Part shown: piece after piece, positions 3,214 to 23,849 of the stretch
Layout of the letters: each line of letters opens with the position of its first letter
Numbering within the stretch: the stretch's first letter is position 1
Source: a virus
IMG/VR virus record: IMGVR_UViG_3300031758_000478
Location: 1-26,755 of that record
Reading direction: 5' to 3' (one strand)
Length of the DNA stretch: 26,755 nt
The notes under the pieces: generated by a model
The model's input: the letters and a program-made list of their open reading frames with translations, nothing else
Database searches by the model: none
Told to the model about the DNA's origin: nothing
Translations under genes and position numbers: made by a program

Positions 3214-4107
3214 TTAATTTACTTCATTTTTTGGTATAAGATAATATGAATCTTTAGTAAGTCTTTCATTAAAATAATTGTCAGGAGGTATAACTTTTTT
3301 CCATGTTTCTCTCCATTTAGGGTCATTAAACATAGGCATAGGAATAAGTTTAGTGTTTAATTTTTCACCTTTTGAGTTTACCCATTCTCTGTCATTTTTA
3401 TAATCAGATCGATCTGCTATAAGATAATAATCTGGGTATTCGGAGGATATACCTGCTAGTATTCCTTTATCTTGAGTAGGTAGTGTATTTTTTAAAACAT
3501 TTAGGTTAGCATATACCTTAATAAAAGTTGTTTTCATATTAGGATAATACATTTCCTTTTTAGTATATGTTCTTTTTTCAGGAATATTTCCTATATTAAT
3601 ATCTTCAGGATTACCAGTTTTAGGTTGGCTATAGGGAATGTTAGATATAGGTGTACCTTGATATACTTTATAAGGTATATTAGCTTTTTCTAAAAGTTCA
3701 AGTATTTTAGGATTTACTGTTTCTTTTTTATTTAGAAATATATCTATACGTTTAAGATAAGGAATAAAATTAAATCTATCACCAGGTATCATTATTTGTT
3801 CTTCACCTAAATCTTCAGGATCATCTGAGTTAAAGGCTCCATCATAAGCAAAAGGGCGAATTTTATATTTGGTACTAATTTTATCTCCATCAAACATCAA
3901 TCTTGCTATTGATTTTGTTTTCATGTTTTGAAGATAACTAGTTTCCATATTTGGACGTATAGAAGTAGATACATATCCTTCTTCATTAGCAAAAATATAC
4001 CTAGTCTCTAAGATTTTTTTTAGATTTGATAAAGGAGTAAAATGATACAAGTCGCCTACTTGTTTGGCTTCAGTAATTTCCTTTAATAGATCAGTTAGTT
4101 TTATCAT
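3214..4107 (-). CDS. Possible ADP-ribosyltransferase-fold protein with N-terminal capsid-targeting-like tag
   Basis: 297 aa. Residues 1-13 (MIKLTDLLKEITE, then Ala14) end in I-T-E, matching the [L/I]-x-E site of T4-type prohead proteases. The next part reads DLYHFTPLSNLKKIL (19-33), GYVSTSIRP (44-52), ARLMFDGDKIS (68-78) and LGEEQIMIPG (100-109). A His in a first strand, an S-T-S strand and a later E-E-Q recall the three-part active site of ADP-ribosyltransferase and RNA 2'-phosphotransferase folds. I recall similar phage proteins, but the assignment is not secure. The C-terminal half (~150-297) is not recognised. The gene stands alone between two hairpins. T4 Alt, an ADP-ribosyltransferase packaged in the head by a similar tag, is the closest known analogy. 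Function is an inference. Confidence 0.5.
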   Translation of the reverse strand: MIKLTDLLKEITEAKQVGDLYHFTPLSNLKKILETRYIFANEEGYVSTSIRPNMETSYLQNMKTKSIARLMFDGDKISTKYKIRPFAYDGAFNSDDPEDLGEEQIMIPGDRFNFIPYLKRIDIFLNKKETVNPKILELLEKANIPYKVYQGTPISNIPYSQPKTGNPEDINIGNIPEKRTYTKKEMYYPNMKTTFIKVYANLNVLKNTLPTQDKGILAGISSEYPDYYLIADRSDYKNDREWVNSKGEKLNTKLIPMPMFNDPKWRETWKKVIPPDNYFNERLTKDSYYLIPKNEVN

Positions 4108-4112
4108 GTTTA

Positions 4113-4141
4113 TAAATATTAAAAAAGGCCTGATTTCTCAA
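4113..4141 (-). promoter_or_regulatory. Weak promoter candidate for the 3214 gene (TTGAGA-N17-TATTTA)
   Basis: TTGAGA (4136-4141) and TATTTA (4113-4118) on the minus strand show the same 17-nt spacing as the stronger copies elsewhere, but the -10 box is poor. It lies over the hairpin at 4126-4145, and the ATG follows 5 nt after the -10 box. Without it, the gene would depend on read-through of the hairpin. Confidence 0.35.
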
Positions 4142-4170: not shown

Positions 4171-4476
4171 TTATAGATTATTTCTAATTTCTCTTTCCAA
4201 CATACCTATAATTTGGTCTTTATCATAATAACTCTTTATAAACTTATCTAACATCAAAAGTGTTTGTTCATCTTCCCAACCCCAATAATCATCAATAATT
4301 TGTTTTAATTCATCAAAAGATTGAGCGTTAGAAACATCTACATCTTGATCACCTTCTTGAAGATAATCTATTACAAAGTTTTTTAAAGATTGAAAAAAAT
4401 CATTTTGGTTTTCAATAATTTGACTTTCTGTAATCAGACCAGCCAACTTCTGCATTTTATAGAATTCTTTATTCAT
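4171..4476 (-). CDS. Small acidic protein with MQKLAGLI-type N-terminal tag (101 aa)
   Basis: 101 aa. The first 17 residues (MNKEFYKMQKLAGLITE, then Ser18) form a tag seen again in the 9139-9612 protein (EFKRMQKLAGLIKE). Both end in I-x-E, a T4 gp21-type cleavage signature. The rest is acidic and probably helical, with FFQSLKNFVIDYLQEGDQDV, a WGWEDEQ stretch and a basic C-terminal IGMLEREIRNNL. The body is not recognised. It is the last gene before a terminator, at the end of the sliding clamp-GroEL run. The proposal that the tag targets it to the prohead, where it is cut after Glu17, is an inference from the motif; the molecular function is unknown. Confidence 0.75.
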   Translation of the reverse strand: MNKEFYKMQKLAGLITESQIIENQNDFFQSLKNFVIDYLQEGDQDVDVSNAQSFDELKQIIDDYWGWEDEQTLLMLDKFIKSYYDKDQIIGMLEREIRNNL

Positions 4477-4503
4477 TGTGTTAAATATGTTTTATTATAC
4501 ATA

Positions 4504-6356: not shown

Positions 6357-6358
6357 AT

Positions 6359-9138: not shown

Positions 9139-9612
9139 TTAAGCTCCTAATGAATCATAAAACACATCATATAATTCATCTTCAGTATATTCTGTTTCAA
9201 TATCTTTTCCACTTTTAGAATATATATACCCTATTACTTCAAATTCAGCATCACTACATCCTTCAGGATCAAGTATTAAACCAGGAATTTCTTTTTCTAA
9301 TTCAGTTTTTGGATCAGGCATACTTAAAATCCATTTTTTATTATCTGGGAGGTCAATAAAATTAGAATATCCTATAACGTATTTTACTTTTTTGTTATCC
9401 TTAGCATCAAAGCCATCTGCTAATCCTTTTTCACAATAAAAAAATTTATAATTTTCTTCATTTTGATAATATTCAGGGGTATATTTTACTGCTAAATCAT
9501 CCTCAAAATTAAAATCTTCTAATTCTCCTTTATTATTAACAGAAGCTTCTTTAATTAAACCGGCCAACTTTTGCATTCTTTTGAACTCTTCAGATATAGT
9601 TTGTTTTTTCAT
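9139..9612 (-). CDS. Acidic protein with MQKLAGLI-type N-terminal tag, inserted in the polymerase locus (157 aa)
   Basis: 157 aa. Residues 8-22 (EEFKRMQKLAGLIKE, then Ala23) repeat the tag of the 4171-4476 protein and end in I-K-E, a T4 gp21-type cleavage signature. The body is strongly acidic (GELEDFNFEDDLAVKY, EKEIPGLILDPEGCSDAEFE, a final TEYTEDELYDVFYDS) with three aromatic clusters. It is not recognised. The upstream AATATTTATAATAAAATACTACAATG context differs from that of the flanking polymerase genes and resembles that of the 7817-7972 gene. The LAGLI string is not a LAGLIDADG endonuclease motif: the catalytic Asp is missing. A tagged, possibly packaged protein placed inside a polymerase gene pair is odd. 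Confidence 0.75.
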   Translation of the reverse strand: MKKQTISEEFKRMQKLAGLIKEASVNNKGELEDFNFEDDLAVKYTPEYYQNEENYKFFYCEKGLADGFDAKDNKKVKYVIGYSNFIDLPDNKKWILSMPDPKTELEKEIPGLILDPEGCSDAEFEVIGYIYSKSGKDIETEYTEDELYDVFYDSLGA

Positions 9613-9642
9613 TGTAGTATTTTATTATAAATATTTATTTTT

Positions 9643-11391: not shown

Positions 11392-11398
11392 ATAAGAT

Positions 11399-11427
11399 AA
11401 TATAACAAAAAAGGCTTGGTTTCCCAA
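11399..11427 (-). promoter_or_regulatory. Promoter of the DNA polymerase gene (TTGGGA-N17-TATATT)
   Basis: TTGGGA (11422-11427) and TATATT (11399-11404) on the minus strand, 17 nt apart. The discriminator ATCTTAT is followed at once by the ATG at 11391, so mRNA would begin at or within 1-2 nt of the start codon. The -35 box is part of the hairpin at 11412-11431. Confidence 0.68.
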
Positions 11428-11454: not shown

Positions 11455-13014
11455 TTAAGCTACTTGAGTAACTGTTACTATAATAGAAGGTATAGCGGGT
11501 ATATTACCTGCTGCTGCTATATATTGGAATTCAGTATTTGATTGATCACTTTGATAAGCAATTTCTACATATGAACCAGAGGTGAATGTGTCAACAAAAT
11601 TCCAAGCAGGAACATGATATGTATTGTTTGAAGTTGGACCTATTTTAGTAGCTGAGTTGGCTATATTCACACCATTTCTTTTAAACCATATATCTATTGT
11701 TGCACCAGTTTGAGTGAAAGTTTGAACTGAGAATTGTATATTATATATACCTGTATTTGCAAATGTTATTCTACTATTATTTTCAATTGTTATACCACTA
11801 GAAGTAACTAATGTACTATAAATAAATGATCCAGAAACGTTTTGGGTAGGTGTTATACTTGCTGTATGGTAAGCAGATAAAAAGTTAAATTGCTTTTGAC
11901 CATTTATAAATAATCCTGTTCCTGTACCATTACTAGTTAAACTTAAAGAACCAGTAATTGTTTGGTTACCAATATAAACAGATGAACCAGTGTAGAATTG
12001 AGAACCAGTAACTGTGAAAATAGTATTACTAAAATTTGTACTACCACTTACTATTATACTGCCACTTAAAACTGTATTACCAGTTATAGTGTTAGAACCA
12101 CTTAATGTATGTGTTCCTATAAATGAAGTTGAACCTGATATATTTACACTGCCTGTTAAACTAGTAACACCTATTAAAGTATTAGAACCGCTTGTAGTCA
12201 TAGAGCCTGTAAATACAGCAGGACCTATGTTTGTAAAAGTACCTGAACCACTAACTATTAACGATCCAGTTATTATTACATTTTGGTTTAATGGAGTAAC
12301 AGAAGAGGCTGTTGTAGCAAAAGAAGATGTACCATAAAATTGAGGATTACTTGATGTTGAATAATTTAAAATAAGAACTCCATCTAAATCATATAGTTCT
12401 CTAACTCCCCAATCAATAGATGATACATCAGCAGAATCTTTTAAAAGAAGACCATTCCAATCTACAGTGACAATTCCAAGTGGATCTTCTAATGTTCTAT
12501 TTCTCCAATTCACTGAAGTTATACCAGCAGTATCTGCTAAGAATCTATTATTTGAATCAATACTATCAGGAACCAATAATGTTCCACTAATAATTGTAGA
12601 TCCAGTAATAGTTGTAGGTCCATTGATGATAGTAGATCCACTAACTCTTAATGACCCAGTAATAGTTGTAGATCCACTTATATTTGTAGAACCAGTAATT
12701 CTAGTTGTTCCATTGATACTAGTAGGACCAATAAAACTAGAGGTACCTACCATAGCCATAGCTGTAGAAGATATTATAAATAGTGGATCAGCAGATGAAT
12801 CATCTGTTACAAAAAAATTACCTACACTAGTGTCAATAATAGTACTACCTGAAAATACAGTTGAACCTGAGAAAGTAAATGAACCTGCAAAAGAGGCATT
12901 ACCTGTATTACTACCTGATAGATAAAAGTATGATTGGGATAGAAAACGGAAGTTTTCATCCATTTGATTGTATGTTAAAGCTGAACCTGTTACGTTCCTT
13001 AAAGTTATACCCAT
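11455..13014 (-). CDS. Tail-fibre-like structural protein with GS-rich repeats and C1q-like tip
   Basis: 519 aa. The start MGITLRNVTGSALTYNQMDENFRFL is a common opening of phage appendage proteins. Residues ~30-130 and ~235-370 are made of short repeats of the type [F/T]-x-G-S-x-T-I-x-G-S (for example GSTTITGSLRVSGS), which suggests a trimeric beta-helical shaft. Between them lies a segment with three SVDW/NRTL-like repeats (VNWRNRTLEDP, VDWNGLLLKDS, IDWGVRELYDL). The last ~140 residues (FLSAYHTASI, FANTGIYNIQFSVQ, IDIWFKRNGVNIA, GSYVEIAYQSDQ) fit a C1q/TNF-like jelly-roll tip. It is probably a receptor-binding or decoration protein. Terminator-like hairpins on both sides make it a self-contained cassette among replication genes. 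Confidence 0.82.
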   Translation of the reverse strand: MGITLRNVTGSALTYNQMDENFRFLSQSYFYLSGSNTGNASFAGSFTFSGSTVFSGSTIIDTSVGNFFVTDDSSADPLFIISSTAMAMVGTSSFIGPTSINGTTRITGSTNISGSTTITGSLRVSGSTIINGPTTITGSTIISGTLLVPDSIDSNNRFLADTAGITSVNWRNRTLEDPLGIVTVDWNGLLLKDSADVSSIDWGVRELYDLDGVLILNYSTSSNPQFYGTSSFATTASSVTPLNQNVIITGSLIVSGSGTFTNIGPAVFTGSMTTSGSNTLIGVTSLTGSVNISGSTSFIGTHTLSGSNTITGNTVLSGSIIVSGSTNFSNTIFTVTGSQFYTGSSVYIGNQTITGSLSLTSNGTGTGLFINGQKQFNFLSAYHTASITPTQNVSGSFIYSTLVTSSGITIENNSRITFANTGIYNIQFSVQTFTQTGATIDIWFKRNGVNIANSATKIGPTSNNTYHVPAWNFVDTFTSGSYVEIAYQSDQSNTEFQYIAAAGNIPAIPSIIVTVTQVA

Positions 13015-13612: not shown

Positions 13613-14107
13613 TTATTTATTTAAGAATTGTTGTAAATTTGGTTTAAAGTAATTAATACTCTTCATTACTTTTCTGTCATGACTACGATATACTATCCAA
13701 TAGTCACCTTGTTTTTCATAATGACATTGAGTACCTTGTTCTTGTTCTCTAACTCGAACAGTTAGATTAGCTTCTTCTTCAGTTTTACAAGCCTTAGACA
13801 TATTTGATGCTTGTACTTCAGCATATGCATCTTGTACTTTATCTTTTAGACCATGCAACATTGCTCCATTACCTAATGAAACATAAGTAATATCACATAG
13901 TGCATCTAGTACTTCTACAATATTTCCTGTTTCACAAGCATGTTTATATTCTTCTAGTTCCTCTAGAATAAAATTATAAACAAACATCCATTCTTTTTCA
14001 TCTGGAATATTTGGAGTATAATTGTTTGGTTTACCCATTGTAGCATTAAATTCTTCTACCTCGCTAACAAAAGGTACATAATTTTCTTTAGATTGAGACA
14101 TTTCCAT
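13613..14107 (-). CDS. MazG-like nucleotide pyrophosphohydrolase
   Basis: 164 aa. The core is EWMFVYNFILEELEEYKHACE (39-59) followed by NIVEVLDALCDITYVSLGNGAMLHG, the E-E-x-x-E ... E-x-x-D-x-x-x-D pattern of all-alpha NTP pyrophosphohydrolases (MazG/HisE type) that bind magnesium and cut NTPs to NMPs. The C-terminal third (HYEKQGDYWIVYRSHDRKVMKS) is a small beta addition. The first ATG overlaps folE by 20 bp; a second ATG two codons later is equally possible. It is co-transcribed with folE. It may remove unwanted nucleotides or adjust dNTP pools for modified DNA; the substrate is not readable from the sequence. Confidence 0.78.
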   Translation of the reverse strand: MEMSQSKENYVPFVSEVEEFNATMGKPNNYTPNIPDEKEWMFVYNFILEELEEYKHACETGNIVEVLDALCDITYVSLGNGAMLHGLKDKVQDAYAEVQASNMSKACKTEEEANLTVRVREQEQGTQCHYEKQGDYWIVYRSHDRKVMKSINYFKPNLQQFLNK

Positions 14108-14783
14108 TATTAATTTTTAGTGAATCAAAAAACTCTTTACGAGCTAAATTGTCGTTTTCCATAAACACGCCTGATGCTTTAGTAGTAATCATTGCAGCAC
14201 CTTGATGTTTAACACCTCTACAACTTACACAATTGTGAGATGCTACTATTGTTACTACAACACCTTTATTGCCTTCACAAACTTTATCTACTGCTTGATG
14301 AATAGCTGCAGTTAATTGTTCTTGAATTGCACCTCTTCTACCAAAGTGCTCTACAATACGATTTAGTTTAGATAAGCCAATTACTCGACCTTCTTTACCA
14401 GCAACATATCCAATATGAACTACTCCACCAATTGTTTGGTGGTGGTGAGAACACATTGAAGTCAGTGGGATATTACGCTCAATAATTACTCCATCATAAC
14501 CATCTGACGGAAATGAAGTAATATCAGTAAACCCGTTATAACGACCAGCCCATAGATCCTTAACATATGCTTTAGCCACACGACGAGGTGTGTCAGCTGA
14601 ATTAGGATCATTTTGCCAATCACATTTTAATGCTGTTAAGAAGTTACCAAAGTGAACTGTTGCTTCTTCAATCATCTGATTCTTTTCCTCATCTGTTAGA
14701 GGACGATCTAACGCTGAGCCATTAGCAAAACCATGTTTTACACACTCAATGTCATTGTGAAATTTTCTTCTATTTTCTTCCAT
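14088..14783 (-). CDS. folE: GTP cyclohydrolase I
   Basis: 231 aa, full length for the family. It converts GTP to 7,8-dihydroneopterin triphosphate, the first step of preQ0 and folate synthesis. TPRRVAKAYVKDL (65-77), the zinc site SMCSHHHQ (Cys111, His113, His114) and HNCVSCRGV with Cys185 are all present, as is GLSKLNRIVEHFGRR (136-150). The promoter at 14792-14820 lies just upstream with 8 nt from the -10 box to ATG. Genes for QueE, QueD, QueC and a DpdA-like enzyme are in the same window, so the role here is supply for 7-deazaguanine synthesis rather than folate. Confidence 0.95.
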   Translation of the reverse strand: MEENRRKFHNDIECVKHGFANGSALDRPLTDEEKNQMIEEATVHFGNFLTALKCDWQNDPNSADTPRRVAKAYVKDLWAGRYNGFTDITSFPSDGYDGVIIERNIPLTSMCSHHHQTIGGVVHIGYVAGKEGRVIGLSKLNRIVEHFGRRGAIQEQLTAAIHQAVDKVCEGNKGVVVTIVASHNCVSCRGVKHQGAAMITTKASGVFMENDNLARKEFFDSLKINNGNVSI

Positions 14784-14791
14784 ATACTTTT

Positions 14792-14820
14792 ATTATAATA
14801 AATTTTTATCAGACAGCCAA
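14792..14820 (-). promoter_or_regulatory. Promoter of folE (TTGGCT-N17-TATAAT)
   Basis: TTGGCT (14815-14820) and a perfect TATAAT (14792-14797) on the minus strand, 17 nt apart. The -35 box lies in the last codons of the hpt gene. AAAAGTAT then ATG at 14783: predicted leader of 0-3 nt. No hairpin is associated with this copy. Confidence 0.7.
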
Positions 14821-15318
14821 GATATAAGGGATAGATCTTTTATTTCCTTCCTCATCATCCATACCATAACCTACAACCCATTGATCTTTAATTTCAAAAC
14901 CATAAATTGAATTTACAGGCATATTAATTTCATTAATAGCACGTTTAATTAAAGTTACTATACTAACACTTGCAGGATTAAATTCTAAAAATATTTCTTT
15001 TAGTTTTTTCATTGTTACTCCTGAGTCGTAAATGTCATCTATAATATAAACATGTTTGTTTTCAGTGTCAATAGAGGGTTGAAGTAATATTTCTAGATCA
15101 CCTCGTTCTTTACCTTCGTATGATTTTACTTTAATAAAATCACATTGTGGATCAAGTGATGATAGTTTTTCTACTAATTTAGAGTAGAAAACAAAACCGC
15201 CATTTAAAACACATACCAATACAATTGGTATTTGCTCATTTTTATGACGGTTTTCGATTTGGGTAGCGATTTCATTGATTCGCTTTTCAATTTGGGATTT
15301 TTCAAATAGTACTTTCAT
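14809..15318 (-). CDS. hpt: Hypoxanthine/guanine phosphoribosyltransferase
   Basis: 169 aa. The PRPP-binding signature HVYIIDDIYDSGVTMKKL (89-106), the N-terminal VLNGGFVFYSKL and the C-terminal WVVGYGMDDEEGNKRSIPYI loop identify a purine phosphoribosyltransferase of the Hpt type, which makes IMP or GMP from the free base and PRPP. It overlaps the thioredoxin gene by 17 bp and is followed by folE. In this context GMP could feed GTP to FolE, and the enzyme could reuse guanine released when a DpdA-like transglycosylase swaps bases in DNA. That role is an inference; base specificity is not visible. Confidence 0.9.
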   Translation of the reverse strand: MKVLFEKSQIEKRINEIATQIENRHKNEQIPIVLVCVLNGGFVFYSKLVEKLSSLDPQCDFIKVKSYEGKERGDLEILLQPSIDTENKHVYIIDDIYDSGVTMKKLKEIFLEFNPASVSIVTLIKRAINEINMPVNSIYGFEIKDQWVVGYGMDDEEGNKRSIPYILAV

Positions 15319-15577
15319 AGAGACTTTTTATCATATCTAAACCTGGGTAATGTCTTATATTTCCTTTATTGGCTACAATAACGTGAGGATAGTAATCTAC
15401 AGCAAATTCTTGTTCTAGATCTTCATTTTCATTTATTCGTATTGTTCGGAAATTAAGTTTTTCAGAAATTTTTTGAATCATAGGAGCAGCTACTTTACAA
15501 GCGCCACACCAGTCAGCATAGAAAACTACAATGACGTTTTCTTTGTTTAAAGCCTCAGTTAGTAATTGTTTATTCAT
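15302..15577 (-). CDS. Thioredoxin-like protein with CGAC site (91 aa)
   Basis: 91 aa, slightly shorter than usual thioredoxins (about 105). VIVVFYADWCGACKVAAPMI contains the redox site Cys24-Gly-Ala-Cys27; DYYPHVIVANKG holds the usual cis-Pro region (P-H instead of P-T). It overlaps the QueE stop by one base (TAATG). A likely partner is the phage ribonucleotide reductase, which needs a dithiol reductant, but a role with QueE cannot be excluded. The Gly-Ala pair in the active site differs from the Ser-Pro pair of the second thioredoxin in this window, so the two may have different partners or redox potentials. Confidence 0.87.
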   Translation of the reverse strand: MNKQLLTEALNKENVIVVFYADWCGACKVAAPMIQKISEKLNFRTIRINENEDLEQEFAVDYYPHVIVANKGNIRHYPGLDMIKSLYESTI

Positions 15578-16347
15578 TATACTTCTCTTTTAGTGTCATA
15601 AGCGATAATGTGTTCTCTACCTGTAAAATTATATCCATTATTCATACACATTTCCATTACTATAGGATACATTTTAATCAATTCCTCTCTAGTATCACCA
15701 GCTGGCATAACCCATGTTTTCCATTTTGGAATATCCATCTCAACTCTAAATGCTTCAATTTCAGCTAATGTTTCCTCAGTACCATCCCAAACTGGTTTGT
15801 AGTGGTAATCATAATGATAATCTATCATTTTACGAATATTATCTTTATGAAGACGGAATTTGTTATGTTGGTCAATCATTTTCTGATCAACTTCTTTGCC
15901 CTGCGGTGTAAGGACACCAATCCTAGGTACACTATTAGTGAACTTAGGAGACAAAGATACCAAGCCAATTTGATGATCTGTTTCAATGAAATGAGAGCCT
16001 TCTGTTTCTATAGTAATAAATATACCTCTACTATAAGCAAAATGAGTCAATTCATTTACTAGATCAGGATGCATTGTAGGTGAACCACCTGTAAGCATCA
16101 TCTCTCTAATATGAGGATTATTATTATACATTTCAATGATATTATTGAAATTGTATTTGCCTTTTTCAGGATGGATACTAGTATACCAAGAATCACACCA
16201 TCCTCCTTCTCCAAACCAACATCTGTGAGTACATCCTGTAGTTCGAATAACGATAGTAGGCATTCCTGCTCTACTACCCTCGCTTTGAACTGCTGTATAT
16301 AACTCTACAATAGGTAAGGTCTTATTGTAATCTGTTATTCTGTTCAT
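15577..16347 (-). CDS. queE: 7-carboxy-7-deazaguanine synthase, radical SAM
   Basis: 256 aa. It converts carboxytetrahydropterin to 7-carboxy-7-deazaguanine with SAM and a 4Fe-4S cluster. Evidence: PIVELYTAVQSEGSRAGMPT (12-31), the cluster loop TTGCTHRCWFGEGGWCDSW with Cys39, Cys43 and Cys51, REMMLTGGSPTMHPDL and ITIETEGSHF. The Cys spacing C-x3-C-x7-C differs from the usual C-x3-C-x2-C and from the C-x14-C-x2-C of E. coli QueE. I recall the same loop in other phage QueE proteins. A Tyr/His-rich insert (MIDYHYDYHYKPVWDG) and C-terminal extension make it longer than bacterial QueE (about 220). Starts on the stop of the 83-aa gene. Confidence 0.92.
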   Translation of the reverse strand: MNRITDYNKTLPIVELYTAVQSEGSRAGMPTIVIRTTGCTHRCWFGEGGWCDSWYTSIHPEKGKYNFNNIIEMYNNNPHIREMMLTGGSPTMHPDLVNELTHFAYSRGIFITIETEGSHFIETDHQIGLVSLSPKFTNSVPRIGVLTPQGKEVDQKMIDQHNKFRLHKDNIRKMIDYHYDYHYKPVWDGTEETLAEIEAFRVEMDIPKWKTWVMPAGDTREELIKMYPIVMEMCMNNGYNFTGREHIIAYDTKREV

Positions 16348-16598
16348 TAAAGTTTTGCGCTATTAAAATGTAAATAAATCTCATTATTGTCTTCTGTGTA
16401 CTTGATATCAAAACACAAACTACATTTAGGATCAACCATTAATGTTTTAAGATGTTCTGTGGTTTGAAAATCACTCAAATCAGCATTGTTTAGAATCTCA
16501 AGTGCTAACTTGATATCACCAGCATCAGCTGATCCAAGCATGTTCTTAACATTTTCTGTGATTTCACTATCAAGTGTATGGATGTAACTTTTACTCAT
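16347..16598 (-). CDS. Unknown small protein upstream of queE (83 aa)
   Basis: 83 aa, not recognised. An N-terminal helical part (SEITENVKNMLGSADAGDIKLALEILNNADL) is followed by a short segment with a Cys pair (PKCSLCFDIKYTEDNNEIYLHF). The C-x-x-C could bind metal or be redox active, but two Cys alone are weak evidence. It is the first gene after the candidate promoter at 16617-16644 and overlaps queE by one base, so it is co-translated with the queE-thioredoxin-hpt run. Confidence 0.72.
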   Translation of the reverse strand: MSKSYIHTLDSEITENVKNMLGSADAGDIKLALEILNNADLSDFQTTEHLKTLMVDPKCSLCFDIKYTEDNNEIYLHFNSAKL

Positions 16599-16616
16599 AA
16601 CTCTTATTTTTATTTT

Positions 16617-16644
16617 AATATAATAATAATTTTTTTAAAGACAA
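16617..16644 (-). promoter_or_regulatory. Promoter candidate for the 83-aa gene and queE (TTGTCT-N16-TATATT)
   Basis: TTGTCT (16639-16644) with TATATT (16617-16622) at 16 nt (or TTTGTC at 17 nt). Weaker match to the -35 box than the other copies, with an 18-nt gap to the ATG ending in AAATAAGAGTTATG. Confidence 0.45.
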
Positions 16645-16646
16645 AC

Positions 16647-17111
16647 TTATTCTGAAAAACTTGCTGAGTTTCTTTCATGTTCATAAACTTCTACTTTAGT
16701 TACTCGAACACGATTTTCCGTTTCTAGTTTTAGAAAATCATTAATTGTGTTGAATAAGTATTCAGCAAATCGTTCACAACCTACATTGTCTAATATTCGT
16801 AGCTGGATAATACCATCCATATCCATTTGTTTGAAATGTTCTAAATATGGATCATCTTGAGCTATAATTGTGGTGTGGTCTAGTAGATAAGTAAAATAAT
16901 CTTTAGGAGATAGTCCATGTATAGTGTTTTTGGCTCTTTTCATCCCACCAAAATCAAATACCCAATTGCGTTCATCTAAATCACCTTCAAACCATACTTT
17001 AAAAGACACAGCATACCCATGCAAATATTTACAATGGGTATTTTCTGCTTTCCATTGACGGAAACAAGTACTGTATCCGTCAAACAATTTTGTTGATTGG
17101 AATTTACTCAT
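16647..17111 (-). CDS. queD: 6-carboxytetrahydropterin synthase family protein
   Basis: 154 aa. Family features are CKYLHGYAVSFKVWFEG (27-43), WVFDFGGMKRA (50-60), LLDHTTII (76-83) and YEHERNSASF near the end. The enzyme turns dihydroneopterin triphosphate into 6-carboxytetrahydropterin, the second step to preQ0. The catalytic Cys27 and His31 are kept. The usual H-G-H zinc motif is H-G-Y, and the usual F-x-A-A-H ligand is replaced by Cys16 in STCFRQW. I recall the same pattern in other phage QueD-like proteins, so it is probably a subfamily trait. It ends the run that begins at the DpdA-like gene. Assignment is supported by the three other pathway genes. Confidence 0.87.
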   Translation of the reverse strand: MSKFQSTKLFDGYSTCFRQWKAENTHCKYLHGYAVSFKVWFEGDLDERNWVFDFGGMKRAKNTIHGLSPKDYFTYLLDHTTIIAQDDPYLEHFKQMDMDGIIQLRILDNVGCERFAEYLFNTINDFLKLETENRVRVTKVEVYEHERNSASFSE

Positions 17112-17114
17112 GAT

Positions 17115-17375
17115 TTATTTTATAACATCGTTATAAGGTTCCCAAACAATACCATCATGGATTTGTCCATTTTCATCTGTTATAGACTCACCTGTAGGCA
17201 TTGCTAAGACAATATCATTGTTTTCAGTTTTACCAATAGCTATAAATCCAAATCCTTCACAGATAATGGGAGTATAGTAGTTTGGTTCTAAACCATCAGC
17301 AATTTCATTAATATCAAATTCTGAGGTCATTTGTGGATCATTAAGATCACACCATTGTTTGCTAAATTCAGCCAT
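17115..17375 (-). CDS. Unknown small protein between thioredoxin and queD (86 aa)
   Basis: 86 aa, acidic, not recognised. Pieces: QWCDLNDPQMTSEFDINEIAD, then PNYYTPIICEGFGFIAIGK and DIVLAMPTGESITDENG, ending VWEPYNDVIK. A small beta-rich domain is likely. It overlaps the thioredoxin by 8 bp and lies 3 bp before queD, so it is translated with both. No motif suggests a function. Confidence 0.75.
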   Translation of the reverse strand: MAEFSKQWCDLNDPQMTSEFDINEIADGLEPNYYTPIICEGFGFIAIGKTENNDIVLAMPTGESITDENGQIHDGIVWEPYNDVIK

Positions 17376-17622
17376 AATTTAAAAAATCTATTATTTGGTT
17401 AAAAGTTTTTACTCCTGTAAATCTACGAGACTCTTGTCCGTTTTCTAATAAAATTACTGTAGGTATATTTCTGACTCCATATCTTTGGACAATTTGAGGA
17501 TCTGTATAATCCACATTTATCTTTTGAACTGGGATTTGTCTTCGTACTTCATCTAGTACTGGTCCTAGTGTTTGACATGGGCTACACCATTCAGCACTAA
17601 AATATAATAATTGTTTACTCAT
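17368..17622 (-). CDS. Thioredoxin-like protein with CSPC site (84 aa)
   Basis: 84 aa from the ATG at 17622, which overlaps the TGA of the 52-aa gene (ATGA). A frame further upstream would only add residues read out of phase from that gene. LLYFSAEWCSPCQTLGPVLDEV contains Cys13-Ser-Pro-Cys16, YGVRNIPTVILLENGQ has the cis-Pro loop, and RRFTGVKTFNQIIDFL the C-terminal helix. It is a compact thioredoxin lacking the first strand and helix of the longer forms. Likely reductant for ribonucleotide reductase; it sits in the queC-queD run instead of next to nrdA. Confidence 0.88.
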   Translation of the reverse strand: MSKQLLYFSAEWCSPCQTLGPVLDEVRRQIPVQKINVDYTDPQIVQRYGVRNIPTVILLENGQESRRFTGVKTFNQIIDFLNYG

Positions 17623-17777
17623 ACTAATTCCTCCCATATTCCTACTACTTCTGCTAAAGCTAATCCTCCGAATGCTAGTACGGGCATTCCTAGGATTCCT
17701 AAAACACAAGATATAATTCTAAGTCCTGATTTAGCAAAACTAATTTGCTGGTGTAATTTAGGATCTGGTTGTTTCAT
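17619..17777 (-). CDS. Small membrane protein (52 aa)
   Basis: A complete 52-codon frame from ATG 17777 to TGA 17619-17621. It opens MKQPDPKLHQQISFAKSGLR and continues with a hydrophobic stretch (IISCVLGILGMPVLAFGGLA) that can span a membrane, ending LAEVVGIWEELV. I recall a widespread small phage protein with the same layout: H-Q-x-I-S-F-x-K-S-x-L-R, membrane segment, then E-V-V-G-I-x-E-E-L-V. Function unknown. Its start overlaps the queC end by 20 bp and its stop overlaps the thioredoxin start, so it is embedded in the operon. Confidence 0.78.
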   Translation of the reverse strand: MKQPDPKLHQQISFAKSGLRIISCVLGILGMPVLAFGGLALAEVVGIWEELV

Positions 17778-18669
17778 GATTTTCTAATATTTGTTTTACA
17801 TGTTTAACTACTGTTTCCCAACTTACAGGACCAGTCTCATCAGCATAACTTACAGGATCTGGTTTTCCAAGTTTAAGGAATGCTTCAATACGTTCTACAG
17901 ATGAAGCTGATTTATAATCTGAATACCATTCACCAAATTTAGTTCTATGTGTTTCTTCTACTCTAGAAGATGCTGGTTCATATGGTATCCAAATTGGCTT
18001 ATAAGATGTGTTAGTACGGCTATATACCTCGTTAAAATTAAGACCTAGGCACTCACAACACTTGTCACCATCCTCTAGAATAGAGTATTTATCTCCACTT
18101 AAATACGGTGTATAATGATATACTTTTTCAGCTCCCCAATTACCTGATTTAAATGCTTCAAAATCAGCATCTCTAAATTCTTGTCTACAATCAGGATAAA
18201 TAGCATGGTCACCAGCATGAATACCCATTGCAATAGCGCATTCAGTATTCTTTTGTTCAGCAATTGATAATGCAACCGCTTGAATAATAGAACTAAATAT
18301 TTTATTACGATTTGGAACTACTGTTGCTTTCATATTTTCTTCAGCATAATGTCCTTCAGGTACTTCTTCACCTCCAGTCACTAATGCTGAATTTAATAGT
18401 GTTGATAAACCATCTAGTGTAATTACTTGGTGTTTCACTTTAGGGAAATGATGCATAATAACTTCTGATGTTTCTGATTTATGTTTAGTTTCATCAGCTT
18501 TGCTATTAATATATTTAACTAATTCCTTAGCACGTTCTAATTCTACATTATGTTTTTGTCCATAATCAAATGATAGTGCTGTAACTTCATAGCCATTGGC
18601 AAGTAGATGAAGTAATAAAGTAGAGCTATCCATTCCTCCACTCAATGATAATACTGCTTGTTTTTTCAT
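17758..18669 (-). CDS. queC: 7-cyano-7-deazaguanine (preQ0) synthase
   Basis: 303 aa from the ATG at 18669, 1 nt after the upstream stop. The PP-loop SGGMDSS (10-16), DYGQKHNVEL (35-44) and VVPNRNKIFSSIIQAVA (117-133) identify QueC, which uses ATP and ammonia to convert 7-carboxy-7-deazaguanine to preQ0. Bacterial QueC is about 220-230 aa; this one has a longer C-terminal part. The usual zinc region (a Cys near T-x-S-C-Y, then C-G-x-C-G-x-C-V-E-R) is replaced by TNTSYKP and YKSASSVERIEAF, so the ligand cysteines are Ser, Ser and Asp. A CCEC cluster at 204-207 might substitute. I recall a similar form in other phage QueC proteins. Confidence 0.93.
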   Translation of the reverse strand: MKKQAVLSLSGGMDSSTLLLHLLANGYEVTALSFDYGQKHNVELERAKELVKYINSKADETKHKSETSEVIMHHFPKVKHQVITLDGLSTLLNSALVTGGEEVPEGHYAEENMKATVVPNRNKIFSSIIQAVALSIAEQKNTECAIAMGIHAGDHAIYPDCRQEFRDADFEAFKSGNWGAEKVYHYTPYLSGDKYSILEDGDKCCECLGLNFNEVYSRTNTSYKPIWIPYEPASSRVEETHRTKFGEWYSDYKSASSVERIEAFLKLGKPDPVSYADETGPVSWETVVKHVKQILENHETTRS

Positions 18670-18670
18670 A

Positions 18671-18967
18671 TTAACAATATTTTTTATATAAATTTTCAAT
18701 AAATTCTATTTCTTCATTATCCATAGAATGAAATCTAGGGATTAAATCAATCATTTTTGAAGCAAAATCTTTTTGTAAATAAGATAATTTCATAGATTCT
18801 GTATCTACTGTTATTCCATCAACTTTATAATCTTTTAGAAATCCATCTTCATCTAACCATTTAGCCATTTCTTTACAAGATGAATTATCCATCTCTGAAT
18901 AGATTTCATCTAAATCAATATCTACATCTACAGATATACTATTACGACTACTTCTCCATTTTCTCAT
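18671..18967 (-). CDS. Unknown acidic protein upstream of queC (98 aa)
   Basis: 98 aa. A basic start (MRKWRSSRNS) is followed by a very acidic segment (VDVDIDLDEIYSEMD), then helices (KEMAKWLDEDGFLKDY, IEFIENLYKKYC). Phage proteins with a similar R-W-R-S-S-R-N-S start are familiar to me but have no known function. The stop is 1 nt before queC and the start 2 nt after the 73-aa gene, so it belongs to the dpdA-queC run. Confidence 0.75.
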   Translation of the reverse strand: MRKWRSSRNSISVDVDIDLDEIYSEMDNSSCKEMAKWLDEDGFLKDYKVDGITVDTESMKLSYLQKDFASKMIDLIPRFHSMDNEEIEFIENLYKKYC

Positions 18968-18969
18968 AA

Positions 18970-19191
18970 TTAAAAAGGTAATTCATTATTATTAAGTTCT
19001 TTAATTTTAGCAAAATAACTATCTAACCATGATACTGGGTATAGCATTACCTTTCCTTTATATACAGGATTAGATACTTCTCTTTGTTGCATAACTATTT
19101 TATCATGTTTTGCTGTTTCAAAAACAATTTTTCCTAAAGTAGGGCCAGCTGCTTTACCTAAGTATTCAAAAAGTGATTTAAATTCTTCCAT
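18970..19191 (-). CDS. Unknown small protein downstream of the dpdA-like gene (73 aa)
   Basis: 73 aa. LFEYLGKAAGPTLGKIVFETA is followed by VMQQREVSNPVYKGKVMLYP and SWLDSYFAKIKELN. Mixed alpha/beta, basic in the middle, no recognised motif. It starts 6 bp after the dpdA-like stop in the AAATAAAAGGTTATG context. Function unknown. Confidence 0.73.
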   Translation of the reverse strand: MEEFKSLFEYLGKAAGPTLGKIVFETAKHDKIVMQQREVSNPVYKGKVMLYPVSWLDSYFAKIKELNNNELPF

Positions 19192-19197
19192 AACCTT

Positions 19198-19992
19198 TTA
19201 TTTTATATTGTTTATTAATTTGAAATCCATTATGTTGTTATAGATGTAAGACCATTTTCTATTTAGATCTTCAGAAGACATTTCCATAACATCATCTATT
19301 CGAGTTTTAGGCTTTTCATCTAATCCCCAAACATTATATTTTATTCTTTCAATACCCGCCATTATTGGATTTGAAGTGTCAATTGTTTCAATAAATGGCA
19401 TATCTTTATAATAGATAAATTCTTGTGGTACAGCACATCCTAATAAGTGTATTCTGTCATGTTTACTAATAACATCATCATTATATAATTTACTTACAAC
19501 ATGTACTCTACCTAAAGCAGTAGCAATTGCCCTATTTGGATGAGATGATAATTCCTGGTAGTATTTAGCTCCATATGAAAATGCTATTTTTCTATATCCT
19601 AAAGCCTGGTATTTGATATAACATTCTCTAGCTTCATCAATACTTTTAGCTTGTACTACTGCTACTTTAAGTGTGTCTTTAGGTAATTTAATTCTAGACC
19701 ATTCAGAAGCATTATTGATAGAAGATTCCATATCTTCCCAAACATCAGGAACAATAAATTCATCTGGTTTAAGTATTTCAATCCAGTATAATAAACGTTC
19801 TGTATTATATGCTTCTCCTAACTCATGGAGAGAATTGTCCATTATAATATAACGACCTTGTTTTTTAGCATCTAAAAAATATTCTTTATACTGCTCATAC
19901 TTGTCCAATAGGTGAGGCAAACAGTAATCATAATGATTAAAACTAGGACTAGCATTTAATAAATTTAATGGAACCTCGTGAGATATTTTCAT
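19198..19992 (-). CDS. dpdA: DpdA-like DNA guanine transglycosylase (TGT fold)
   Basis: 264 aa. The order of motifs follows tRNA-guanine transglycosylase: RYIIMDNSLHELGE (48-60) in the position of the D-S-G-G substrate site, FIVPDVWED (79-87), AFSYG (137-141) for the glycine-rich strand, HLLGCAVPQEF (182-192) matching the Y-L-M-G-V-G-x-P segment, and IETIDTSNP (201-209), where Asp205 would be the nucleophile. The zinc-binding C-terminal domain of tRNA enzymes is missing, as in phage DpdA proteins that insert preQ0-type bases into DNA. The gene shares an operon with queC and queD. A tRNA substrate cannot be fully excluded. It has its own promoter at 20010-20038 and a leader of about 11 nt. Confidence 0.82.
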   Translation of the reverse strand: MKISHEVPLNLLNASPSFNHYDYCLPHLLDKYEQYKEYFLDAKKQGRYIIMDNSLHELGEAYNTERLLYWIEILKPDEFIVPDVWEDMESSINNASEWSRIKLPKDTLKVAVVQAKSIDEARECYIKYQALGYRKIAFSYGAKYYQELSSHPNRAIATALGRVHVVSKLYNDDVISKHDRIHLLGCAVPQEFIYYKDMPFIETIDTSNPIMAGIERIKYNVWGLDEKPKTRIDDVMEMSSEDLNRKWSYIYNNIMDFKLINNIK

Positions 19993-20626: not shown

Positions 20627-20854
20627 TTATTTCATATTATTTAAAAAAGCAACCACATCTGGTATTTCATCTTTAAAGATGTACATTTGACTATGTACTC
20701 TATATCCATCATTTGAATCTAGTTTTGTAATCCATACACCTTTTTTATCACTTTTTAAAATAACAGTTTTGTTAGGACCAAGTTTAACAGTAGCCTCATT
20801 TAAAATTTTTTCTACTTCTTCTTTAATGATTTGCTTAAGTTCAGATTTTTTCAT
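20627..20854 (-). CDS. Small protein with MKKSEL-type N-terminal tag (75 aa)
   Basis: 75 aa. The first 20 residues, MKKSELKQIIKEEVEKILNE, followed by Ala21, are almost the same as in the next gene upstream (MKKSELRQIIKEEVDKVLKE). The tag ends in L-N-E, a T4-type prohead protease signature. The remaining 55 residues form a predicted small beta domain (TVKLGPNKTVILKSDKKG, VWITKLDSNDGYRVHSQMY) with a C-terminal helix. It is not recognised. The stop of the upstream gene is 4 bp away. If the tag is cut off after Glu20 the mature protein would be about 6 kDa, similar in size to T4 internal peptides or proteins. Confidence 0.75.
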   Translation of the reverse strand: MKKSELKQIIKEEVEKILNEATVKLGPNKTVILKSDKKGVWITKLDSNDGYRVHSQMYIFKDEIPDVVAFLNNMK

Positions 20855-20858
20855 TATA

Positions 20859-21473
20859 TTATTTATTCATTAATAGGTAGTAGTCTTCTAGTACATCTCT
20901 TGTTTTTTTAGTAGGCTTATCATCATAATAGTCTGCTGCAAAGTGAAGAAGGATCTTATCACCATCTATCTTTACTATGTCAGCGAACAGTAAATCATTC
21001 ATTCTAACAATCTCATCACCAACTTTAAGTTTAGTTTGAGGTGTTATTCTTGTCCACTTACCAGCCTTAAACTCCTTTTTTGCTCCATAATTTGCCCAGT
21101 TTGGTATTGCAGTTGGGTCTATGTCATTTTTGATATATGCAATCACATCATCAACAGACTTTTGCATTACATCATTATTACGTCCACCAGCCCCTATTAC
21201 ATTATTAGCTAATTGCTCTGCGGAGTTCATTCGCTTATTCTGTCCTATCTTTTTAAAACCTAGTTTGTAGATAGCGGTAAATAGGTTTATGGTATCCTTT
21301 TTGACTTTAGGATTTTTTGGAAACTTGTTAAAGCGTTCCATAGCTTTGGTAATGATGTTTTTCCACTCATCGCCAGGATTGTTAAAGTCATATGTACTTG
21401 GTATTGATGATGCTTCTTTTAATACCTTATCTACTTCTTCTTTGATGATTTGTCTTAGTTCTGATTTTTTCAT
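20859..21473 (-). CDS. Protein with MKKSEL-type N-terminal tag (204 aa)
   Basis: 204 aa. The tag MKKSELRQIIKEEVDKVLKE (1-20, then Ala21) ends in L-K-E. The body has a helical part (NIITKAMERFNKFPKNPKVKK, TINLFTAIYKLGFKKIGQNK) and, near residue 140-190, a beta part (WTRITPQTKLKVGDEIVRMN, ADIVKIDGDKILLHFAADYY) that resembles a small SH3-like barrel. The N-terminal body is basic, consistent with DNA contact. Not recognised as a whole. Its 5' flank carries the leftover nrdA 3' end (21505-21591), which shows that this gene once followed an nrdA gene directly. Confidence 0.77.
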   Translation of the reverse strand: MKKSELRQIIKEEVDKVLKEASSIPSTYDFNNPGDEWKNIITKAMERFNKFPKNPKVKKDTINLFTAIYKLGFKKIGQNKRMNSAEQLANNVIGAGGRNNDVMQKSVDDVIAYIKNDIDPTAIPNWANYGAKKEFKAGKWTRITPQTKLKVGDEIVRMNDLLFADIVKIDGDKILLHFAADYYDDKPTKKTRDVLEDYYLLMNK

Positions 21474-21480
21474 TTTTTTT

Positions 21481-21591
21481 TATTAAATGTTTATCATACA
21501 TATTTTATCCTTCACAAGAAACGCATTCTGATAATCTTTGTAAGTTATCTCCTCTTAATACTGATTCTGTACGTAGATAATATAATGTTTT
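21481..21591. repeat. Long direct repeat, copy 1 (old nrdA end plus leader)
   Basis: About 100 of 111 positions are identical to 22101-22211 at a fixed offset of 620 bp. It covers the last 28 codons of nrdA, the stop, and the short leader before a tagged gene. Similarity continues less strictly into the tag codons. Confidence 0.85.
21505..21591 (-). pseudogene. Second copy of the nrdA 3' end (28 codons)
   Basis: The minus strand encodes KTLYYLRTESVLRGDNLQ and then RLSECVSCEG before TAA at 21505-21507. This is the same as the NrdA C-terminus except for one Ile-to-Val change. Nine base differences fall in eight codons and seven of these codons are synonymous. The fragment keeps the Tyr-Tyr radical pair and the C-x-x-C tail, but has no start and no upstream nrdA sequence. 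The pattern suggests it is the end of another functional nrdA allele, left behind by recombination, not a decaying tandem copy. Confidence 0.85.
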
Positions 21592-21745
21592 TAGATACAA
21601 TCTGTTTTGTAGCTGGATCAGCAAACTTGCGTTTCTCTGTATCTAATTTAGCTACATAGTCTTTTGTACTAGTAAACCATTCTTTAATATCCGTTAAAAT
21701 ATCATCAAGTTTTTCTGGGCTTTTAGCTATTATTCTATATGCCAT
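21545..21745 (-). CDS. Small protein, probably truncated at a recombination junction (66 aa)
   Basis: 66 aa. The first 50 residues (MAYRIIAKSPEKLDDILTD, then IKEWFTSTKDYVAKLDTEKR) look like a real charged alpha/beta protein. The last 16 (NIILSTYRISIKRR region) are an out-of-frame reading of the nrdA remnant. The original C-terminus was therefore probably lost when the 21505-21591 segment was joined to it. It starts 22 bp after the stop of the 21768 gene. Not recognised; it may be nonfunctional. Confidence 0.5.
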   Translation of the reverse strand: MAYRIIAKSPEKLDDILTDIKEWFTSTKDYVAKLDTEKRKFADPATKQIVSKNIILSTYRISIKRR

Positions 21746-21767
21746 TACGTTGCTTTTTTATATTAAA

Positions 21768-22094
21768 TTACTTTAACATTTTTAATAATACTGCCGCAGC
21801 TTTCTGTTGTGCAGTTACTGGAGCTTCTGCAGTATCACGTAGATTGTCATATGCTTTAATTAGTTTACTATCGCCGCTATCATATACAGCATCAGATGAA
21901 TTGCCTAATTTATCAATGATATTGTCAGTCATATCTTCACCTTTAGCGGTACCAGCCAAAATGTCTGTTACATTGTCTTTAAGATATTCATTATCGTAAT
22001 ACGATAATGATTCGTTAATAGTCTTTTTCGTATTTTCACGCAATACATTGCGAACTTCTTCGCGGATGAGTTTTTTAAATTCTGATACTTTCAT
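21768..22094 (-). CDS. Small protein with MKVSEF-type N-terminal tag, downstream of nrdA (108 aa)
   Basis: 108 aa from the ATG at 22094; a longer frame from 22121 would add MYNKHLIKK, but the tag start aligns with the other two tagged genes. The tag MKVSEFKKLIREEVRNVLRE (1-20, then Asn21) ends in L-R-E. The body is helical and polar (TINESLSYYDNEYLKDNVTD, ILAGTAKGEDMTDNIIDKLG, ending VTAQQKAAAVLLKMLK). Not recognised. The gene lies in the segment between the two nrdA-end repeats, so it probably arrived with the present nrdA 3' end. Confidence 0.72.
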   Translation of the reverse strand: MKVSEFKKLIREEVRNVLRENTKKTINESLSYYDNEYLKDNVTDILAGTAKGEDMTDNIIDKLGNSSDAVYDSGDSKLIKAYDNLRDTAEAPVTAQQKAAAVLLKMLK

Positions 22095-22100
22095 TTTTTT

Positions 22101-22211
22101 TATTAAATGTTTATTATACATATATTATCCCTCACAAGAGATACATTCTGATAGTCGTTGTAAATTGTCTCCTCTTAATACTGATTCAGTACGTAGATAA
22201 TATAATGTTTT
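22101..22211. repeat. Long direct repeat, copy 2 (3' end of the intact nrdA plus leader)
   Basis: Counterpart of 21481-21591, inside and just after the intact nrdA gene. Confidence 0.85.
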
Positions 22212-23849
22212 AATTCCTTGTTTCCAAGCCTCTTTATGTACTTGACTAATCCATTTTGGTGTATCATTTGGATCAAAACATAAATTTAATGAAATTGCTT
22301 GGTCTACATATTGTTGTCTGATACCATTTTGTTTTACAATTTCCAACTGGTTGATTTCTTTGAATGTTAAGAATACTTCTTTTTCTTCAGCGGTTAGAAT
22401 ATAATCTGGTAAGCCATAAACAGAACCTTGATCTTTTAAGATTTGTTCCCAAACACTATCAATGTTGTATCCTTTTTTCTCTAATACTGCCTCTAGTGTT
22501 TTATTACGTTTAATAAACACACCTTTTGCTGTTTTTAGATTATAAACATTAGCAGGAATAGGTTCAATTGAAGGTGATACACCTCCTGAAATATGAGCAT
22601 TTGATACTGTAGGTGCCGGTGCTAGTAAGTGAGTATGTCTTAGACCTGTACCTTTACACCATTCTGGTTCACCATATAGTTCTGCTTGATCTTTAGATGC
22701 TTTAATTGCTTCTTTTTGAATGAAATCAAACATCATTCTAGTATAAGAGTTAGCTTGAATACCTACAAACGGCAATCCTTTTTGTTGTAAAAATGTATGC
22801 CAACCTAAAACACCTAATCCAATTGCTCTACCTTTAGTAGCTGAACGAACTGTGTTTTCCATAAATTTAACATTCTTAGCTCTATCAATAAATTCTTGAA
22901 GTACACCTTCTAAGAACCAAATTGATAATTCAGGTAATGTCATTCCATTTTCGAACTTATAGTCTTTCCATTCTTCCCAACGAGCCAAATTTAAAGATGA
23001 TAAACAGCAAATAAATGAGTGTAATTCATCTGTATATAAAGCAATCTCAGTACAAATGTTAGTCATTGATACTTTTAGATTGTTTTGCTTATATGCTTCA
23101 GGATTTGTATTATTAATATTGTCTTCAAACATAAGATAAGGCTCACCTGTCTCTAAACGTGTCTTAAGAATTTCACCCCATATCTTTAATGATTTAGGAT
23201 CCTTATCTTCTAGCTTATTCATAAAAGTATCATCAATAACAACACATTGATGAAGATTTAGACATTGACGATTAACATCACCTTTTGGTCTTCTAATTTG
23301 TAAAAATTCTTCAATATCTGGGTGATTAATACTTAGATTAACAGAAGCTGCTCCTCTACGAACACTACCTTGGTTAGTGGCTAAGATAGTTGAATCATAA
23401 ATTTTAGCCCATGGAACTACACCTTCTGATACACCATTGTCTCTAATAGCTTTACCTCTACCTCTAATACGAGATAAACCGATTCCAACTCCTCCACCTT
23501 GAGAAGATAATCTCATTAATTCAGAGTTTGCATCTGCAATACCTTCAATGCTATCACCTACATCAATTCCAAAACATGAAATTGGCATTCCACGTTCAGT
23601 ACCCATGTTTGATAATACTGGTGATGCTAAGCATAACCAATTTTTAACTATCGCCTCGTAAAAGAATGGTTGTAAATCTTTACGTTTTAGACGGCGAGCA
23701 GCAAATTTACTTACTCTTTTATAAGCATCAAATACATCTTCATCAGGTAGTAAATACCCTTTAGAAATCATACTTATTGCTATTTCATCCATCCATTCAG
23801 GATAATGTTTCCCCTTAACCCAATTGCTTGTGTCTACTTGTATACTCAT
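22125..23849 (-). CDS. nrdA: Ribonucleotide reductase class I, large subunit
   Basis: 574 aa. It reduces ribonucleoside diphosphates to deoxy forms with NrdB. SCFGIDVGDS (Cys92), the radical loop SMTNICTEIALY (Asn264, Cys266, Glu268), ICCLSSLNLAR with the second redox Cys at 281-282, the Tyr550-Tyr551 pair in KTLYYLRTESV and the C-terminal Cys569-x-x-Cys572 are all present. It lacks the N-terminal ATP-cone of E. coli NrdA (761 aa), so dATP inhibition through that domain is absent, as in many phage enzymes. It lies 13 bp after nrdB. Its 3' end is duplicated 620 bp downstream. The two thioredoxins in the window are likely reductants. Confidence 0.96.
   Translation of the reverse strand: MSIQVDTSNWVKGKHYPEWMDEIAISMISKGYLLPDEDVFDAYKRVSKFAARRLKRKDLQPFFYEAIVKNWLCLASPVLSNMGTERGMPISCFGIDVGDSIEGIADANSELMRLSSQGGGVGIGLSRIRGRGKAIRDNGVSEGVVPWAKIYDSTILATNQGSVRRGAASVNLSINHPDIEEFLQIRRPKGDVNRQCLNLHQCVVIDDTFMNKLEDKDPKSLKIWGEILKTRLETGEPYLMFEDNINNTNPEAYKQNNLKVSMTNICTEIALYTDELHSFICCLSSLNLARWEEWKDYKFENGMTLPELSIWFLEGVLQEFIDRAKNVKFMENTVRSATKGRAIGLGVLGWHTFLQQKGLPFVGIQANSYTRMMFDFIQKEAIKASKDQAELYGEPEWCKGTGLRHTHLLAPAPTVSNAHISGGVSPSIEPIPANVYNLKTAKGVFIKRNKTLEAVLEKKGYNIDSVWEQILKDQGSVYGLPDYILTAEEKEVFLTFKEINQLEIVKQNGIRQQYVDQAISLNLCFDPNDTPKWISQVHKEAWKQGIKTLYYLRTESVLRGDNLQRLSECISCEG

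Follow-up and report, generated by a model that had tools for sequence, protein, structure and literature searches.

The short N-terminal segments described here, which end in L/I-x-E and stand before unrelated bodies, are very probably capsid-targeting sequences of the T4 type in a greatly expanded form, and the proteins bearing them would be made late, docked, cut by the gp21 protease and ejected. The best reading of our analysis is that uncultured T4-like phages have expanded the T4 capsid-targeting principle on a large scale and with multiple tags. It draws on features read from the sequences themselves, namely the modularity of the tags, a motif shared with gp21 and gp23, co-occurrence with gp21, a late-type motif before tagged genes and a resemblance to the ends of prohead-core proteins; packaging of the tagged proteins in virions appears well supported.

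The window (the whole stretch of DNA analysed, an IMG/VR virus record of 26.8 kb) is probably a fragment, and head genes are absent from it. Its T4-like replication genes comprise a family B DNA polymerase in two pieces, a clamp loader, a DnaB-type helicase and a ribonucleotide reductase. The nearest isolate found, Flavobacterium phage vB_FspM_immuto (NC_055915; hereafter immuto), carries tags A, B, C-like and D (defined below) along with gp20, gp21, gp23 and the same late-type motif, its tagged proteins being annotated mostly as hypothetical. It shares QueC/QueD/QueE, FolE and GroEL/GroES genes with the window, whereas its DNA polymerase is of family A, unlike the split family B enzyme of the window.

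The initial annotation had described three neighbouring proteins with a common 20-residue start. All three ORFs exist at the positions given, beside the reductase gene nrdA and on the minus strand, and their first 20 residues (tag A) match the proposed pattern exactly:

20627..20854, minus strand, tagged ORF 1, 75 aa, tag A MKKSELKQIIKEEVEKILNE (20795-20854), predicted cut E20/A21
20859..21473, minus strand, tagged ORF 2, 204 aa, tag A MKKSELRQIIKEEVDKVLKE (21414-21473), predicted cut E20/A21
21545..21745, minus strand, untagged 66-aa ORF between tagged ORFs 2 and 3
21768..22094, minus strand, tagged ORF 3, 108 aa, tag A MKVSEFKKLIREEVRNVLRE (22035-22094), predicted cut E20/N21
22125..23849, minus strand, nrdA, ribonucleotide reductase large subunit (phrog_84, E=2.4e-147)

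The three tagged ORFs are clustered as described, but they are not strictly neighbours, an untagged ORF being placed between the second and the third. Their tags are pairwise identical at 16/20, 11/20 and 11/20 residues. The bodies after Glu20 had been called unrelated, and their pairwise local alignment scores (33, 35 and 39) indeed fall within the range of shuffled bodies; scans of these bodies against Pfam and PHROG gave no convincing family match. An upstream ATG considered as the start of tagged ORF 3 (giving MYNKHLIKKMKVSEF) was rejected because it falls within a promoter-like motif and its counterpart ahead of ORF 2 is not in frame.

The frequency of tag A is far above chance. In IMG/VR, at least 120 matches were obtained with a degenerate DNA version of it, as opposed to none for a codon-scrambled pattern of similar degeneracy, which yielded no contigs and was used as the chance control (the control contigs came from looser patterns). 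In 257 Gb of about 85,000 bacterial and archaeal genomes the tag-A pattern has three matches, two of them from one small bin. The only matches to tags A and B in a tblastn search of 50,697 phage records were in immuto phages and in a single uncultured phage of 484 kb, with no cyanophage or enterobacterial T4-like match. Capsid-targeting sequences in metagenomic phages had no prior report in the literature searched, most subscription journals and preprints being outside its coverage.

The proposed length of the tag agrees with the conservation across 148 unique tag-A ORFs, which stops at residue 20 (column information drops from 1.56 bits at residue 20 to 0.46 at residue 21 and is about 0.1 from residue 23 onwards). 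The [LI]xE motif is found, at variable spacing, within residues 16-28 in 118/148 of these ORFs versus 12% of body windows, and is missing from residues 14-30 in 30/148, nearly all of which have I-[KR]-E at 10-12. The latter is a second L/I-x-E match inside the tag (I-[K/R]-E, residues 10-12), and 233 of 235 tag-A proteins have I/L/V-x-E there; because of this second match, cleavage at E20 is favoured rather than the sole option. The residue that follows E is often small or polar, with an excess of A/N/G/S (Ala 20% in tag A and 26% in tag C; Asn 33% and Ser 30% in tag B), compared to about 6% each for Ala, Asn and Ser in bodies. Two loci, L028 (7.4 kb) and L118, are densely packed with tag-A genes (six and eight), the bodies of which are unrelated. 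A tag-A-like core (ELKQLIKEEI..) also stands at the C-terminal end of ORFs L119:5607, L009:18 and L249:6569, as a possible C-terminal tag.

In T4, gp21 cleaves behind L/I-x-E, and proteins gain affinity for the core from their propeptides (PMC9026906). Co-occurrence of the tag profile with a gp21-type protease, a relationship raised in the initial annotation, was borne out: PF03420 is present in 13/13 tag-bearing records of at least 130 kb (including the isolate immuto and the 484 kb uncultured phage) versus 4/20 control records of any size, the control sample being small. In every tag record with a complete T4-like portal/head region the gp21 protease is present; the records without gp21 are fragments, in which the portal gene is absent or runs off the contig end. 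The gp20 gene (sometimes at a contig end) was found in 20/21 tag records of at least 90 kb versus 3/9 controls (p=9e-4), and gp21 in 11/13 large relatives sharing the nrdA of the window. Matching sites stand on the known gp21 substrates of these phages: the propeptide of gp23 ends in ENQA..[LI][VIL]xE/[ASTG] (22/22) and the gp21 N-terminus has [LIV]xE/[SGA] near residue 20 (26/26 versus 75/627 other ORFs), both identified by alignment/position. The mapping of the T4 gp23 site E65/A66 onto immuto gp23, via the solved T4 gp23, is approximate, as the alignment begins a few residues past the site.

Besides the three tag-A ORFs, the window contains three further tagged ORFs of two other types, which had been overlooked. 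Two of them carry tag B, of the form E-F-x-x-M-Q-K-L-A-G-L-I-x-E, and one carries tag C, of the form M-I-K-L-x-D-[IL]-L-x-E, the window copy being extended to ITE, then A; tags B and C also end in L/I-x-E. They are listed together with the copies of a promoter-like motif, TAT[TG]TATAA:

3214..4107, minus strand, tag-C ORF, 297 aa, MIKLTDLLKEITE then A, predicted ADP-ribosyltransferase-fold body
4110..4118, minus strand, motif TATTTATAA, 11 nt before tag-C ORF 3214-4107
4171..4476, minus strand, tag-B ORF, 101 aa, MNKEFYKMQKLAGLITE then S
4495..4503, minus strand, motif TATGTATAA, 27 nt before tag-B ORF 4171-4476
9139..9612, minus strand, tag-B ORF, 157 aa, MKKQTISEEFKRMQKLAGLIKE then A, in the gap of the split DNA polymerase gene
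9625..9633, minus strand, motif TATTTATAA, 21 nt before tag-B ORF 9139-9612
21489..21501, minus strand, longer leader motif, one-mismatch copy (ATGTATGATAAAC), before tagged ORF 2
22114..22122, minus strand, motif TATGTATAA, 28 nt before tagged ORF 3

In immuto this motif lies about 20-33 nt before virion genes, among them those for portal, sheath and tube, and also before tagged genes; judging from the genes that it marks, TAT[TG]TATAA is probably a late promoter. All four intergenic coding-strand copies in the window (22122, 9633, 4503 and 4118) precede tagged ORFs, marking four of the six, and none of the replication and metabolism genes of the window is preceded by it; two more copies fall inside ORF 11455-13014. 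Across the upstream regions compared, the motif was found before 108/581 tagged ORFs versus 91/1113 other ORFs, virion genes being included in the latter. The polymerase gene is split into 8002-8886 and 9643-11427 (PHROG 262 positions 81-573 and 573-852), and its gap holds a 66-aa ORF as well as the tag-B gene with its own late-type motif.

The tags also resemble ends of prohead-core proteins, of which gp22 and gp67/68 were assigned by position and similarity inside this clade rather than by direct comparison with T4. The tag-B core R[MFW][QK][KQ]LA[GNK] forms the gp22 C-terminus in 17/22 phages (e.g. immuto ..IISE..RWQKLAGIIK); over 6,725 ORFs it is N-terminal in 85, C-terminal in 43 and in the middle in three, and among 1,692 control ORFs it does not occur. 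A gp67/68-position protein in L546 starts with MKKSELKQIIKEELKKALQKE then MSTTG, which is tag A, and its relatives retain a degenerate form. Tag C bears a weak likeness to the starts of gp22 (..DLLKEA) and gp23 (..SILNES). The tag-B core (RMQKLAGI) also ends some proteins other than gp22 (L006:10419, L007:12686, L247:3229, L021:1352 and L263:3167), in which it is a possible C-terminal capsid tag.

From these resemblances we infer that the tags would dock their cargo by core-protein imitation. In the proposed mechanism, tagged proteins would be made late, alongside virion proteins, and the tag would dock each of them into the prohead core as an imitation of one end of a core protein (the gp67/68-position N-terminus for tag A, the gp22 C-terminus for tag B and possibly the gp22 or gp23 N-terminus for tag C). 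The gp21 protease would then remove the tag by cutting after [L/I/V]-x-E and free the body inside the head, and the freed body would be ejected with the DNA into the next host. Bodies would be exchanged between phages at hotspots and would probably be early-acting takeover or counter-defence proteins, among them the ADP-ribosyltransferase-fold, Acb1-like, kinase and tRNA-nucleotidyltransferase bodies described below and others of no known function. We also lean, by a modest degree, towards a broader version of this scheme, in which scaffold mimicry would be a general shipping system. Its interchangeable tags would be copied from core ends (the gp22 C-terminus, the gp67/68-position N-terminus and the gp22/gp23 N-terminus) and placed on a large, fast-turnover effector pool, giving each virion a configurable counter-defence payload.

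The suggestion that the tag is a module that can be fused to different cargo was borne out directly, both by body families with different tags and by a variable hotspot of tagged genes beside nrdA. Across the relatives, 587 tagged proteins (tags A-D) fall into 339 body families, including 275 singletons, and in 16/339 families the same body is found behind more than one tag type. Examples are tag A ..RKILTE/AKSENYPF versus tag B ..GLITE/AKAEVYSY, tag A ..KALNE/GKQVGTLYHFTD versus tag C MIKLLDILNE/SKQVGPLYHWTD, and tag C MIKLIDILNE/AEVEKCPAPTQN versus tag D ..KLYE/AVMACPLPTQN. In 93/117 cross-tag pairs, which are not independent, the L/I/V-x-E sites keep register to within one residue, compared to a null mean of 35 and maximum of 51. 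Register spacing was used in place of alignment starts, which gave no clean peak because the alignments extend into the similar sites. Contigs chosen for one tag often carry other tags too.

At the hotspot nrdA is the fixed anchor, beside which the relatives have no tagged gene (42 loci), one (15), two (3) or three (4); the bodies change, and in some cases an ADP-ribosyltransferase-like body behind tag C is found there. In the closest relative (L565, with an nrdA protein 97% identical to that of the window) the homologue of tagged ORF 2 directly follows nrdA and that of tagged ORF 1 lies at +648 from it, while tagged ORF 3 is absent from this place and the third cargo is a different one. Such variability bears on the strongest alternative, according to which the tags do dock into the prohead core but the bodies are assembly, core, scaffold or DNA-condensing proteins kept in the capsid and not injected effectors. 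This alternative, which we regard as unlikely, agrees with the resemblance of tags A and B to core-protein ends and with the presence of the CP-x-x-TQN body (tags C and D) within a longer untagged protein of Actinomycetia phage DSL-LC01, beside a capsid maturation protease gene. However, a repertoire consisting largely of singletons, with zero to three tagged genes at nrdA, is very variable, unlike core structural genes, and the bodies include several enzymes and an Acb1-like protein.

These came from a scan of 129 tagged proteins (window members plus family representatives), among which recognisable bodies are few: an NT5C-type deoxyribonucleotidase, P-loop/zeta-type kinases, a polynucleotide kinase, a tRNA nucleotidyltransferase, an exonuclease-like protein and a nucleotidyltransferase. 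The NT5C, kinase and tRNA nucleotidyltransferase bodies would also fit a role as ordinary intracellular enzymes. A tag-B protein (L252:3425-3988) has a candidate Acb1-like 2H phosphoesterase body, its match to the profile of the anti-CBASS protein Acb1 (E=4.9e-6, 26.8 bits) being just under the Pfam cut-off of 27; L189 and L215 contain relatives. Because T4 Ip1-3 share only their leader and each blocks one GmrSD restriction enzyme (PMC12373910), counter-defence would, by analogy, be the likeliest general role of the cargo.

The tag-C protein of the window (3214-4107) has no Pfam match. Its AF2 model, built with a 12-sequence alignment (pLDDT 74; the model without an alignment, with pLDDT 38, was unusable), gave Foldseek matches to DarT (4.5e-5) and to tRNA 2'-phosphotransferase (4.5e-4, TM 0.71 by target), and the body is accordingly modelled as an ADP-ribosyltransferase fold, the first strand of which starts at residue 19, directly behind the tag. 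In the 12 homologues Y21, H22, T24, P85 and E102 are invariant and S47 is near-invariant, which has an ART-like look.

A second alternative, with a low probability in our assessment, would make the tag an N-terminal amphipathic helix for oligomerisation or for membrane or host-protein binding, with a coincidental L-x-E and no role as a packaging signal. The tag is indeed Lys/Glu-rich and helix-like, and a tag-A-like start with an ..ILLEA site is also present on a conserved baseplate-cluster protein (immuto 81525-81944, G003 79958-80302, L082:1509-1874, L081:3358-3993), for which reason the tag-A helix may not be head-specific. Yet the unrelated tag types share only their L/I/V-x-E end and swap on the same body, this motif also closes the propeptide of gp23 and the N-terminal segment of gp21, and the tags recur at core-protein ends and co-occur with gp21. 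Finally, a functionless relic (diverged paralogues keeping their start, or a repeat copied by recombination, which the similarity of promoter-leader and tag DNA among the three genes, with 38-49/60 tag bases identical pairwise, would favour) is scarcely credible when hundreds of proteins on many divergent contigs keep a protein-level tag with sharp boundaries, homologous bodies carry different tag types, and about 1.16 Mb of control loci contain no tag A, B or D and a single tag C. Capsid targeting, the function originally suggested for the tag, is supported by the co-occurrence with gp21, the swapping of tags and the matching gp21/gp23 motifs.

This capsid-targeting interpretation has close parallels in T4, the IPI, IPII and IPIII proteins of which also combine a short N-terminal leader ending in L/I-x-E with unrelated bodies, several genes per phage and polymorphic cargo; T4 and the tag-bearing phages both have T4-type heads with gp21. 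The first ten residues of T4 IPIII (the CTS) suffice for packaging foreign proteins, and the IPs are ejected together with Alt, an ADP-ribosyltransferase (PMC9026906). On the other hand, the T4 CTS has about 10 residues and is found on few proteins, whereas here there are several unrelated tags, often in one phage, and hundreds of body families. The consensus also differs: tag and CTS are alike only in general form and ending, over too short a stretch for homology to be claimed. Unlike the T4 CTS, tags A and B resemble core-protein ends. Alt, like the tag-C protein of the window, has its ADP-ribosyltransferase behind a short segment ending in I-T-E; Alt is cut at ITE-6 (PMC5694885), and the window protein has ITE-13. 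The latter is smaller (297 aa), has tag type C, and its predicted fold is nearest to DarT/tRNA 2'-phosphotransferase rather than shown to be Alt-like. Many inner-body proteins of phiKZ and SPN3US are likewise ejected, and their N-terminal propeptides are cut after x-x-E by gp21-related S80 proteases (PMC5694885, PMC9026906), but these giant-phage propeptides are mostly much longer and the motif is A-x-E or S/A-x-E.

If correct, the capsid-targeting interpretation would provide a short readable signal that shows which proteins of a widespread uncultured phage group are packaged, and probably injected, and with it hundreds of candidate anti-defence or host-takeover proteins, nearly all without a known function. 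It would also suggest how capsid-targeting signals originate and work, namely as copies of scaffold ends, and would make several new tags available for protein loading into phage heads.

Some further features of the window are of note. Genes of the queuosine-type 7-deazaguanine pathway (QueC, QueD, QueE and FolE-like) occupy 14088-19992, and the ORF 19198-19992 (phrog_19058) and the Que genes are ordered as around DpdA in immuto; because of these genes and their order, the virus is probably a modified-DNA phage. A GroEL gene (phrog_5725) adjoins a GroES-like gene at 4740-6694, the same as in immuto. The ORF 11455-13014 encodes a 519-aa fibre-like protein with many GSTxISG-type repeats and is located amid the replication genes.
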